A stretch of DNA of 64,000 nucleotides from Actinomyces timonensis DSM 23838 (GTDB lineage Bacteria; Actinomycetota; Actinomycetes; Actinomycetales; Actinomycetaceae): positions 421,092 to 485,091 of the forward strand of contig NZ_JH806634.1 in assembly GCF_000295095.1 (NCBI RefSeq). Reading direction: 5' to 3'. A program made the translations under genes and the position numbers. The first letter of the stretch is position 1, and every line of letters starts with the position of its first letter. Positions 54,618 to 57,508 of the stretch are shown here, one piece after another. The notes beneath the pieces were generated by a model. That model saw only the letters and a program-made list of their open reading frames with translations, searched no databases and was not told where the DNA came from.

Positions 54618-55193
54618 TCAGATGTAGATGGTCGGGTCGATCATGAGCTCGGGATCGACCTTGGGGTCGCGCACGCGGCTGGGCACGCCGACGGCGACAT
54701 GCCCCTGCGGGACGTTCTTGATGAGCACGGCGTTGGCGCCGATCTTCGCTCCGTCCTCCACAGTCACCGGGCCCAGCACCTTCGCGCCGGCGCCGATCTG
54801 CACGTTGTTGCCGATCGTGGGGTGGCGCTTGCCGGGATTCATGGAGACTCCGCCGAGCGTGACCCCGTGGAACATGAGGACGTCGTCGCCGACCTCCGCG
54901 GTCTCGCCGATGACGACGCCCATGCCGTGGTCGATGAAGAAGCGCTCGCCGATCTCGGCGGCGGGGTGGATCTCGATGCCGGTGAGGCCCCGGGCCGCCT
55001 GGGACAGGGCGCGGGCGGCGAAGCGGTGCCCGCCGTTCCACAGTCGGTGCGCCGCCCGGTAGGCCCACACGGCGTGGACGCCCGGGTAGAGGAGGGCGAC
55101 CTCGGCGTTTGTGCGGGCGGCCGGGTCCCGGCGCCGCGCGGTGGCGAGGTCCTCCTTGGCCTGCGCCAGCAGGGAGCGGTGGCTGTGGGACAT
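54618..55193 (-). CDS. cysE: serine O-acetyltransferase
   Basis: The 191-residue enzyme has the short CysE form: [76 protein letters not shown] and the closing VGVPSRVRD. The His of DHGMGVV is catalytic. It makes O-acetylserine for CysK. GAGGAGAGTC precedes the ATG. It lies 172 bases downstream of cysK on the same strand, beyond a hairpin. Confidence 0.94.
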
Positions 55194-55267
55194 GACTCTC
55201 CTCGATCGGTGGGGCGCGCCGGTCGGGCGCGGATTGGCGGCGCGCTTGGCCGCCTCATGCCCCAACG

Positions 55268-55307
55268 CCGACGGCGGCGATCCTGTTCCCGGGACCACCG
55301 CCGTCGG
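55268..55307 (-). terminator. hairpin between cysK and cysE
   Basis: Ccgacggcgg (55268-55277) pairs perfectly with 55298-55307; the 20-base loop holds a further cccggg. It lies 58 bases after the cysK stop and about 75 bases before the cysE start, so it could be a partial terminator. Confidence 0.55.
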
Positions 55308-55365: not shown

Positions 55366-56304
55366 TCAGTTGAGGTACTCGGCGTACAGCGGCGTGGAGA
55401 GGTAGCGCTCGCCGGTGTCCGGAAGGACCGTGACGATCGTCTTGCCCTCGAGCTCCGGGCGCTGGGAGAGCTGGTCGGCCGCCGCGAGGGCGGCGCCGGA
55501 GGAGATGCCCACGAGCAGGCCCTCCTCGCGCGCGGCGCGGCGGGCGTAGGCCAGGGCGTCGTCGGAGGAGACGTGCAGCAACTCGTCCCAGATGCCCTGG
55601 TCGAGGACCTCCGGGACGATGTTGGCGCCCAGGCCCTGGATCTTGTGCGGGTTCCAGTTGCCCTCCTGAAGGAAGGGGGACTCGGCCGGCTCGATGCCGA
55701 AGACCTTGACGCCCGGCACCTCCTCGCGCAGCACCGTGCCCACGCCCGTGAGCGTGCCGCCGGTGCCGATGCCCGCGACGAAGGCGTCGATCGCGCCACC
55801 GGTGGCCTCGATGATCTCCCGGGCGGTGGTCTCGCGGTGGACCTTCGGGTTGGCCGGGTTGGTGAACTGGGAGGCCAGGATCGAGTTCGGGGTGGCGGCC
55901 TGGATCTCGGCGGCGCGCTTGGCGGCACCGGCGACCCCGCCCTCGCTGGTGAGGACCAACTCGGCGCCGAAGGCGCGCATGAGGGCGCGGCGCTCCTTGG
56001 AGAAGGTCTCCGGCATCGTGATGATGACCTTGTACCCCAGGGCGGCTCCGACCATCGACAGGCCGACGCCCGTGTTGCCGCTCGTCGCCTCGATGATCGT
56101 CCCGCCCGGCTTGAGCTCGCCGGAGGCCTCCGCGGCGCGCACGATCGACAGGGCGATGCGGTCCTTGACACTGCTGGCGGGCTCGAAGGCCTCGACCTTG
56201 GCCAGGACCGTGGCGGGGCCGGAGGTGACGCGGTTGATTCGGACCAGTGGGGTGGAGCCGACGAGGTCGGTGACGTTCGCGGCGATCGTGGAAGCGTGGG
56301 ACAT
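55366..56304 (-). CDS. cysK: cysteine synthase A (O-acetylserine sulfhydrylase)
   Basis: The 312-residue enzyme has NVTDLVGSTPLVRINRV, EPASSVKDRIAL with the PLP-binding Lys47, IIEATSGNTGVGLSMV, GIGTGGTLTGVG and GISSGAALAAA. It joins sulfide with O-acetylserine to form cysteine. The C-terminus ends in AEYLN, which may matter for CysE binding (which usually contributes its own C-terminal Ile; CysE here ends in Ile). The gene is preceded by a cysteine-rich leader peptide and a hairpin (see findings). Confidence 0.95.
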   Translation of the reverse strand: MSHASTIAANVTDLVGSTPLVRINRVTSGPATVLAKVEAFEPASSVKDRIALSIVRAAEASGELKPGGTIIEATSGNTGVGLSMVGAALGYKVIITMPETFSKERRALMRAFGAELVLTSEGGVAGAAKRAAEIQAATPNSILASQFTNPANPKVHRETTAREIIEATGGAIDAFVAGIGTGGTLTGVGTVLREEVPGVKVFGIEPAESPFLQEGNWNPHKIQGLGANIVPEVLDQGIWDELLHVSSDDALAYARRAAREEGLLVGISSGAALAAADQLSQRPELEGKTIVTVLPDTGERYLSTPLYAEYLN

Positions 56305-56456
56305 GGGTTCTCCTCGAGGAATGAATGGTGGGCGCTCCGGCCCGGCCGCGCTGGCGCGGGTGCCGGGTGGCGCTCAAGCGATGGCGTGAGATGGATGAAG
56401 GAAGTGAGCGGTTCGCGGCCGCGATGATGCAGGGCTGTGAGGGGCCTGCGGTCCCG

Positions 56457-56510
56457 GAGCGCCGGGCATGCGCGCGGCGACGCGCGCACGTCTTGAGGAG
56501 CCTGGCGCTC
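56457..56510 (-). promoter_or_regulatory. predicted attenuator hairpin in the cysK leader
   Basis: In the cysK transcript the segment 56510-56500 can pair with 56467-56457 (11 bp, one mismatch), enclosing a perfect 8-bp hairpin (56488-56481 with 56476-56469, GNRA-like tetraloop). The outer 5' arm begins at the last base of the leader-peptide stop codon, so a ribosome at the stop or at the Cys codons would prevent pairing. This is the geometry of a ribosome-mediated attenuator. Confidence 0.5.
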
Positions 56511-56575
56511 TACCGACACCGGCAGCAGGAGAGGGACATCTCGCGCATGAGACACGTGGCCGACACGGGCATCAT
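56510..56575 (-). CDS. cysteine-rich leader peptide of cysK
   Basis: A 21-codon open frame starts ATG-ATG and ends in SCCRCR followed by TAG. Four of its codons are Cys (codon 8, 17, 18 and 20), three of them in the last five codons. GGAGAGGAGGA lies about 5 bases before the first ATG, one of the best ribosome sites in the region. It lies 205 bases upstream of cysK on the same strand. Cysteine-responsive leader peptides of this kind have been described upstream of sulfur genes in mycobacteria. The peptide itself probably has no function beyond sensing Cys-tRNA. Confidence 0.6.
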   Translation of the reverse strand: MMPVSATCLMREMSLSCCRCR

Positions 56576-56761
56576 GGGGGTCCTCCTCTCCGTGGCTGAC
56601 TCTTCTGGCTGGCGCCGCGATCAGGATTGTGCGGGCGGCGCTGTGGGAGCGACTTTAGTGCGGCCGGAGTGGGTGGCGTCAAGCGGTTCGTATGGTGAGC
56701 GGGCCTGATCCGCCCACAGCGGAGCGGGGAAGTAGAGGTGCGGGAAGAGCCCGCTGCCCGC

Positions 56762-57508
56762 TCAGGTGGGCGGCCGGAGGGGCGACTCGACGAGCCTCGT
56801 GCCCGCCGGGGTCGGCGTCGCTCCTCCCGCGGTGAGCTGGGCGATGAGCTCGGCGGGGGAGGGGGCGCCCGCGGGCGTGGACAGGAGGACGACGGCGTCG
56901 CTCGCGCCCCAGGTCGTCTCCTCCACGGCCAGGGCGCCACTGGCAGCCCCCGAGGCGCGCAGCTCGGCCTCCAGGCGGCCCGCCCGCGCCACTGGGACCC
57001 GCACCTCCCACAGGGCCCGCTCGCTGATGCTCACGCGCGCGGCGGCGTCGAGAGCCTGGGCGGCGGCCTCGGAGTAGGCGCGCACGAGCCCACCGGTTCC
57101 CAGCAGCGTGCCGCCGAAGTAGCGGGTGACGACGACGGCGACCCCGGTGAGCCCGCTGCCGCGCAGGACTTCCAGGATCGGCTGGCCGGCCGTGCCGGAG
57201 GGCTCGCCGTCGTCGCTGGAGCGCTCGACGGCGGGGGCGCCGGGTGCGGTGCCCGGCTGGGGGACGATGAAGGCAGAGCAGTGGTGGCGGGCGTCGGGGT
57301 AGCGCGAGCGGATGCGCGTGATGAAGGCGCGGGCGGCGTCCTCGTCGTCGGCGCGCTCGGCGCGAGCCAGGAAGTGGGAGCGCTTGACCTCCAGGTCCGT
57401 CTCGGGCTGCTCGCCCGGCGCGAGGGTGAGGCGGGCGGGCGCGTCGACGCCGGCGGGCTCGGCGGGGGCGGAGTCGGAGGAGACGGGCGTGGGGCGCTCA
57501 GCGGGCAT
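56762..57508 (-). CDS. yigZ: YigZ/IMPACT family protein
   Basis: The 248-residue protein has an N-terminal Ala/Pro-rich stretch of about 25 residues, then the UPF0029 domain with KRSHFLARAERADDEDAARAF, HHCSAFIV, DDGEPSGTAGQPILEVL and VVVTRYFGGTLLGTGGLVRAY. A C-terminal DUF1949-like ferredoxin fold follows. Homologues affect translation control (IMPACT) or are of unknown bacterial function. Confidence 0.88.
   Translation of the reverse strand: MPAERPTPVSSDSAPAEPAGVDAPARLTLAPGEQPETDLEVKRSHFLARAERADDEDAARAFITRIRSRYPDARHHCSAFIVPQPGTAPGAPAVERSSDDGEPSGTAGQPILEVLRGSGLTGVAVVVTRYFGGTLLGTGGLVRAYSEAAAQALDAAARVSISERALWEVRVPVARAGRLEAELRASGAASGALAVEETTWGASDAVVLLSTPAGAPSPAELIAQLTAGGATPTPAGTRLVESPLRPPT

Follow-up and report, generated by a model that had tools for sequence, protein, structure and literature searches.

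The cysK leader region

The region described here is situated on the minus strand of a 64,000-nt stretch of the genome of Actinomyces timonensis DSM 23838 (contig NZ_JH806634.1), the whole of which is referred to below as the window. It contains the genes cysK and cysE, preceded by a gene of the YigZ family. A short cysteine-rich reading frame and a hairpin are placed between a promoter-like pair of sequence boxes and cysK. The positions of the features are summarized in Table 1.

Table 1. Features of the cysK locus in the window, in order of their position on the minus strand
Feature	Position	Strand	Basis or remark
YigZ-family gene	57508..56762	-	457-nt gap separates it from cysK
Promoter-like pair: TTGACG (56682..56677), 19 nt, TAAAGT (56657..56652); 5' of leader frame	56652..56682	-	sequence pattern
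Leader-frame Shine-Dalgarno (SD) sequence, AGGAGG	56582..56587	-	sequence; GGAGGACCC-type site in most genus relatives
Leader frame (uORF), 21 codons, MMPVSATCLMREMSLSCCRCR; stop TAG 56512..56510	56510..56575	-	Cys-rich frame in 47/48 genus loci
Region A, CATGCGCG, in leader codons; complement of inner-hairpin 3' strand; candidate alternative pairing only	56542..56549	-	codon shuffles
Last Cys codon, TGT, at -2 from stop; the only universally conserved Cys codon	56516..56518	-	47/47 genus and 67/67 other leaders
Outer-stem 5' arm, GAGCGCCAGGC; first base is last base of stop codon	56500..56510	-	sequence, RNAalifold, covariation
Inner hairpin, 8 bp, TGCGCGCG/CGCGCGCA, loop TCGC; basal G.U pair 56489/56468	56469..56488	-	RNAalifold, covariation
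Outer-stem 3' arm, GCCCGGCGCTC	56457..56467	-	sequence, RNAalifold, covariation
Spacer from hairpin to cysK, rich in C and poor in G; Rho may load here	56316..56456	-	base composition
cysK Shine-Dalgarno sequence, GAGGAG	56310..56315	-	sequence
cysK, cysteine synthase A, 312 aa	55366..56304	-	TIGR01139, 405.7 bits (cut-off 350.95)
cysE, serine O-acetyltransferase; next same-strand gene after cysK	54618..55298	-	TIGR01172, 232.8 bits (cut-off 210.65)

An earlier note on this DNA had described the leader as a 21-codon frame with a strong ribosome-binding site, ending 205 nt upstream of cysK. Both statements were reproduced by our analysis: the frame starts with ATG, contains four Cys codons and is preceded by AGGAGG located 6 nt before the start codon, and the recomputed distance between the leader stop and the ATG of cysK is the same. 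It is probable, from the SD sequence and the conservation of the frame, that the leader is translated. Its predicted product has no match in NCBIfam. At the Rfam 15 gathering score the only matches of the window are two tRNAs, and at E ≤ 10 the sole match within positions 56280..56780 is a sub-threshold microRNA at 56710..56769.

The hairpin consists of two helices. The outer stem, which had been given as 11 bp, is present (G56510-C56500 with G56467-C56457), with 10 of the 11 positions paired and one A.C mismatch, so that the original length was slightly generous. That it starts at 56510, the G completing the UAG stop codon, agrees with the earlier description, as does the inner hairpin of 8 bp (56488..56481 with 56476..56469), to which a G.U pair may be added. 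Neither the folding energy nor the Cys codons would have drawn attention to this region: the 301-nt leader folds with an unremarkable energy (z = -1.0), and the Cys-codon run (TGYTGYNNNTGYNNNTAG) occurs twice in the genome, compared with five matches of a reversed control pattern. Since these properties are not striking alone, conservation decides, and it goes beyond chance, as documented below.

Conservation of the leader frame and the hairpin

We searched for the leader in genomes of the same genus, of which 48 out of 49 carry a cysK homolog. As the earlier note had proposed that conservation in close relatives be examined, both parts were inspected: a short Cys-rich frame is present upstream of cysK in 47 of the 48 loci, and the hairpin follows the frame directly in 47 of 47. 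The exceptional genome (G047, locus L062) has a cysK gene with neither leader frame nor hairpin. In 35 loci aligned by clade, the hairpin varies far less than its flanks and the spacer. RNAalifold, applied to the 47 relatives, returned the same two helices (17 pairs) unprompted. In the genus alignment (44 distinct rows) 99.2% of the cells pair and six pairs have changed on both sides; none of 500 shuffles was as good.

This analysis was extended to an alignment of 86 loci (82 distinct rows), which was fitted to the covariance model and therefore leans towards it; in this alignment 97.6% of the cells are paired, compared with 90.8% after shuffling, and at most 66.9% are paired in slid controls. 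Compensatory changes, i.e. changes on both sides, were observed at 14 of the 17 base pairs, and the covariation score was 0.246 versus 0.132 for shuffled alignments (0/500 shuffles as high). Judged by this covariation, the RNA hairpin behind the leader is real. Two further alignments, A4 (which contained spurious rows) and A5, were not used for any model.

Within the genome of A. timonensis the covariance model yielded one significant match (E = 2e-15; next best, E = 0.34). The idea that the element forms a regulon was rejected, as there is a single significant copy, and second weak matches in six genus genomes (E from 0.013 to 0.1) were taken as chance. In genome G037, a second match of the leader peptide was detected away from cysK (L036; G037:C11:273068-273127), with 65% identity and E = 0.003; this genome gave no second match of the model.

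The element is also present outside the genus. Covariance model R1 matched 95 of 213 genomes of the family (E ≤ 0.1), representing 17 of 36 genera. Among its out-of-genus matches 40 of 48 loci were examined, and 39 of these 40 lie upstream of cysK genes with 54 to 65% identity; the remaining one (L136), which is not near cysK, was judged false. Model R2 matched 111 of the 213 genomes (E ≤ 0.001; 18 of 36 genera), leaving 102 model-negative genomes in a family where 206 of 213 carry cysK. In a search of the order, R2 matched 81 of 396 genomes (E ≤ 0.05), and 28 of the 32 loci checked, five of them from the family of the window, sit before cysK. There are 58 matched genomes outside this family; loci from 27 of them were checked, of which 23 were true and four (L174, L177, L179 and L182), none near cysK, were judged false.

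An exact sequence pattern of the element was used in parallel. In GTDB genomes it retrieved 94 stretches; among the 80 of these that were listed (the wider set, which includes six Actinomyces loci), 76 have cysK 37 to 213 nt downstream, and in the other four the sequence ends about 24 to 198 nt past the element. The 80 listed stretches come from Actinomyces, Actinobaculum, Georgenia, Cellulomonas, Cellulosimicrobium, Actinotalea, Demequina and some metagenome bins, and the genus, family, order and GTDB locus sets overlap in part. In the order sample, counting pattern matches alone, 60 of 396 genomes were matched, compared with 12 for a control pattern. Among 396 genomes sampled from the phylum it was found in five, including that of A. 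timonensis, compared with 10 for the reversed control, which is only weak evidence of absence because many true cases escape the pattern. One contig (L256; JAKBFW010000092.1), which bears the title of a Proteobacteria metagenome bin, contains the element with cysK at 77 nt, and is probably a mis-binned actinobacterial sequence.

We also inspected, among the places listed, 20 hand-chosen cysK upstream regions of model-negative family members. In eight of them a frame closes with TGT-NNN-TAG, and a stem whose sequence is unrelated starts at the G of its UAG. One (L333) has only a Cys-rich frame, and in 11 the scan found no combination of a TGT-NNN-stop frame with a stem (in L339, one of the 11, there is only a frame, 405 nt upstream). 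Judging from these loci and from the 102 of 213 genomes lacking a model match, many relatives seem to regulate cysK otherwise, or by an unrecognised form of the leader.

Most leaders of the genus start with GGAGGACCC-ATG(ATG); directly before the stop codon they encode C-x-C-R or C-x-C-L, and their middle residues vary. To compare the codons, we aligned 114 leaders on the stem: 47 from the genus, located through cysK, and 67 others found with models that include the columns of codon -2, so that the latter are partly pre-selected. Codon -2 from the stop encodes Cys, and is TGT, in 114 of 114 (i.e. also in the 67 pre-selected ones). The base that follows it is C in 44/47 genus and 63/67 other leaders, and various residues (R, L, Q, P and others) occupy that place. 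Among the Cys codons at -3 to -7, TGC prevails (194 TGC versus 59 TGT). The Cys codons are few and often interrupted, with 2 to 5 among codons -2 to -8 in 112 of the 114 leaders. The distance from UGU through 5 nt to the foot of the stem is fixed, including in the eight loci whose stem is of unrelated sequence. A fixed UGU among UGC codons points to a constraint at the level of the RNA or of decoding.

Two variants of the general arrangement were observed. In L054, L099, L109, L126, L135, L152 and L153 the UAG at the foot of the stem is replaced by a sense codon, and in all seven the frame continues through the 5' arm and stops within the hairpin. Loci of the Demequina type (L221, L226, L241, L247 and L273) contain, after the outer stem, a second short hairpin of the type GGCAUCG/CGAUGCC, located behind the motif GCUCGCCCCGG and before cysK; its covariation is apparent by eye.

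Upstream of the frame, a TTGAC-N20-TAnnnT sequence was found in 29 of 47 genus loci, at a distance of 40 to 136 nt, and in none of 47 control stretches inside cysK; of the gaps from 10 to 26, only 20 occurs. In the window the pair ends 76 nt before the leader frame, and a promoter consensus scan with 16-18 nt spacing did not list it. The earlier note had made its reading dependent on the absence of a transcription start downstream of 56510; in the sequence the promoter-like pair is found upstream of 56575, and transcription is therefore likely to start upstream of this position; from the pair, a start near 56645 would be expected.

Possible outputs of the leader

The spacer between the hairpin and cysK has an unusual composition. 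An excess of C over G of more than 0.05 is seen in 45 of 45 spacers of the genus and 73 of 74 of the wider set (excluding L055 and L067 of the genus and wider-set loci with a gap of less than 45 nt), compared with 30% of 162 control stretches, which are intergenic DNA and not proven 5' untranslated regions. In the stretches upstream of the frame the same excess was found in 22 of 45 genus and 21 of 74 wider-set loci. The mean difference C minus G is 0.198 in the spacers (sd 0.060, n = 73) and -0.002 in the control intergenic stretches (sd 0.103, n = 162). Thus, by composition, the C-rich, G-poor stretch known behind the frame in Rho-dependent attenuators is present. The shortest spacer of the wider set is about 37 nt, which leaves little room for Rho before cysK. 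No intrinsic (U-tract) terminator was detected before cysK by a terminator scan of the window, and TTTT occurs in only 5 of 46 spacers of the genus and 2 of 76 of the wider set.

The anatomy of leader-peptide attenuators sensing aminoacyl-tRNA is established for leaders of the trp and his types. The sequences directly show the parts of the cysK leader and their fixed register, the covarying hairpin, the biased composition of the spacer and the association with cysK. The same arrangement, kept in many related bacteria, is probably a switch reading the cell's cysteine supply, and it is very probable that it constitutes a cis-acting, cysteine-responsive leader-peptide attenuator of cysK. The downstream gene cysE is probably also controlled by it.

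On this reading, transcription would begin upstream of the leader frame and a ribosome would translate the frame, its speed over the Cys codons, above all over the invariant -2 UGU, reporting the supply of Cys-tRNA. A ribosome covers about 15 nt counted from the first base of its P-site codon. With the -2 UGU in the A site, it would reach 4 or 5 nt into the stem; at UAG it would cover the whole 5' arm, and at codons -4 or -5 none of it. As the foot of the hairpin is the last base of UAG, closure of the hairpin would depend on the position of the ribosome, and we consider it fairly probable that the mutual exclusion of the two is the functional step. When cysteine is plentiful, the ribosome would finish the frame and leave and the hairpin would close; the naked C-rich spacer would be open to Rho, which would terminate transcription upstream of cysK or within its first part. 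Under cysteine scarcity, the ribosome would remain where the frame ends, delaying both the closing of the hairpin and the loading of Rho, and cysK would be made. Rho-dependent termination, which we infer from the composition of the spacer, is a plausible output, though one we advance with reserve.

The earlier note had proposed that a ribosome stalled on the run of Cys codons keeps the stem open, and that formation of the stem reduces cysK expression. The -2 UGU is the only universal Cys codon and a stall there would reach the foot of the stem, which favours this polarity; ribosomes stalled on the Cys codons further upstream (-4, -5) would not reach the stem and fit it poorly, and the polarity is not established. 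Similarly, the attenuator claim is upheld as far as a cis-acting leader of cysK with constrained Cys codons and a covarying hairpin is concerned, and a lowering of cysK expression by the stem is not established, given the lack of a U-tract and the results on the cysK ribosome-binding site that follow.

The role of this site was analyzed by computing the accessibility of the SD sequence with no ribosome on the leader, or with a ribosome at the stop codon, the first Cys codon of the tail, or the last Cys codon (44 genus loci, excluding L054, L055 and L067, and those 72 of the 80 wider loci that have cysK with a clear start). Accessibility of the cysK SD/AUG with a stalled as opposed to a terminating ribosome was higher in 14 and lower in 17 of the 44 genus loci, and higher in 24 and lower in 21 of the 72 wider loci. 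Sequestration of the SD sequence as a general output was rejected, there being no consistent shift and no enrichment of anti-SD words. A general downstream partner of the 3' arm was rejected as well (mean z of -0.01 for 46 genus and 0.43 for 76 wider loci); the loci in which this arm pairs conspicuously with the spacer all belong to the clade of the window (L005, L001 and L003). These findings bear on translational attenuation of the kind described for mycobacterial polycysteine frames, in which the hairpin state would hide the ribosome site of cysK and a stalled ribosome would free it. The closest experimentally studied relatives are described in these terms, as far as the consulted parts of the reports go (PMC13236596, PMC9031893), and the window itself would suit such a switch: in its unconstrained minimum-energy fold the CUCCUC past the leader stop (56500..56495) pairs with the GAGGAG of cysK (56315..56310), and the 3' arm has a 10-nt complement ending 26 nt before cysK. 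With no consistent shift of the computed accessibility with the position of the ribosome, anti-SD words unenriched and the 3' arm pairing conspicuous in one clade only, we regard this mechanism as rather unlikely.

The search for a strand competing with the hairpin gave a similar picture. In most genus members a pairing between region A and the inner 3' strand is possible, and the alternation of Arg and Cys codons there keeps the pairing, as would be expected of a trp-type attenuator in which region A (CAUGYGYG) is the competing strand of an intrinsic terminator and antiterminator. Such a device is improbable, as there is no U-tract or terminator-like site and the codon-shuffle p is ≤ 0.05 in only 14 of 47 genus loci. 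Changes of region A in L009 and L012 that seemed compensatory were discarded, the duplex energies being not significant (p = 0.25 and 0.265). Partners of UGUC were also counted: GACA is slightly more frequent than in shuffles (36/47 versus 28.5 in the genus, 36/76 versus 29.8 in the wider set), and GGCA is in excess in the wider set (60/76 versus 41.3) and not in the genus (33/47 versus 36.3), so that no partner clearly holds in both.

No general competing structure was found that would account for the step from the hairpin to the output. The hairpin could instead be a pausing device: it would be positioned at the mRNA entry channel while the A site holds the -2 UGU, and would slow the decoding of this codon, which is read by wobble. 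Small decreases in Cys-tRNA would in this way be turned into long stalls; the pause itself would be the signal and no alternative partner would be needed. The spacing of UGU, 5 nt and stem foot, fixed despite unrelated stem sequences, the use of UGU in place of UGC in every aligned leader and the failure to find a general partner of the stem all speak for this idea. Nevertheless, UGU plus C may be fixed for another reason at the RNA level, as the excess of GGCA in the wider set (absent from the genus) may indicate, and an output step would still be needed; as a full explanation we hold it to be doubtful. Sensing of a metal or thiol by the Cys-rich peptide, and not of Cys-tRNA, would have parallels in CutF and CruR, which sense copper, and leader products of that kind are on record (PMC9973294, consulted in part). 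In the cysK leaders, only the -2 Cys is universal, so that no Cys pair of fixed spacing is kept, and almost all loci checked have cysK as the gene behind the leader; this makes such sensing very improbable indeed.

Taken as a whole, a cysteine-responsive attenuator with Rho as its likeliest output is the best explanation and, in our opinion, a reasonably probable one, in which the stalling, the polarity and the involvement of Rho are what we infer. With considerable caution it may be suggested that the leaders represent an order-wide class of attenuators, in which the stop codon is the foot of the hairpin, the sequence of the stem is free and the register is fixed to the -2 UGU; the hairpin would act on the ribosome as a gate for pausing and release, in place of a switch between two competing folds, and through the C-rich spacer the result would be passed on to Rho. 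A conserved, single-copy leader offers a defined target for experiments, and a covarying stop-codon hairpin lacking a terminator or a general sequestor makes a Rho, translational or ribosome-gate output directly testable.

Relation to known cysteine leaders

Leader peptides containing Cys codons, without conserved hairpins, have been predicted in Mycobacterium, P. acnes and B. longum, and Rho was proposed for these hairpin-less actinobacterial leaders (PMC1262725, consulted in part). They resemble the leader of A. timonensis in many respects: a short upstream frame with Cys codons near its stop, a position before cysteine or sulfur genes, an actinobacterial host and the lack of a terminator hairpin. 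The parts of that study which we consulted report no conserved hairpin. The leaders analyzed here have a covarying hairpin that starts at the stop codon, precede cysK and come from other families.

Attenuation by polycysteine leaderless short ORFs has been demonstrated experimentally in mycobacteria (Canestrari et al. 2020, as cited in the consulted parts of PMC13236596, PMC9031893 and PMC9094748). As described in those sources, the principle, cysteine-responsive control of sulfur genes through translation of upstream Cys codons, is probably shared, whereas the frames differ: the mycobacterial ones are leaderless with contiguous Cys codons, and those studied here have a strong SD sequence, few and interrupted Cys codons, an invariant -2 UGU and a hairpin at the stop codon. 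The frame in the window appears not to belong to the leaderless, contiguous type, having an SD sequence and a promoter-like pair 76 nt upstream.

The leader of the E. coli tna operon is Rho-dependent; its peptide, TnaC, undergoes arrest when the nascent chain senses free tryptophan. The tna leader, also mentioned in PMC1262725 (consulted in part), has in common with the proposed cysK attenuator that a ribosome at the end of the leader frame would decide on the loading of Rho behind the stop codon. In the cysK leaders, unlike in tna, the sensing is likely to be done by hungry Cys codons, and a hairpin lies between the stop codon and the C-rich stretch.

The leader of the window had been said to appear undescribed. 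For the hairpin form this agrees with the literature searched, in whose consulted parts neither the leader nor the hairpin was recognised (including PMC4833913, PMC8079986, PMC2965389 and PMC9973294); Cys leaders without hairpins, by contrast, are in print for other Actinobacteria (PMC1262725, seen in part). The same literature contained nothing on RNA-level switching of cysteine synthesis in Actinomyces, Cellulomonas or Demequina. A prediction paper on sulfur genes, Lyubetsky 2014, reportedly exists and could hold part of the present finding. As far as our searches reach, Cys leaders as such are known, and what is new is the form whose stop codon serves as the anchor of a covarying hairpin.
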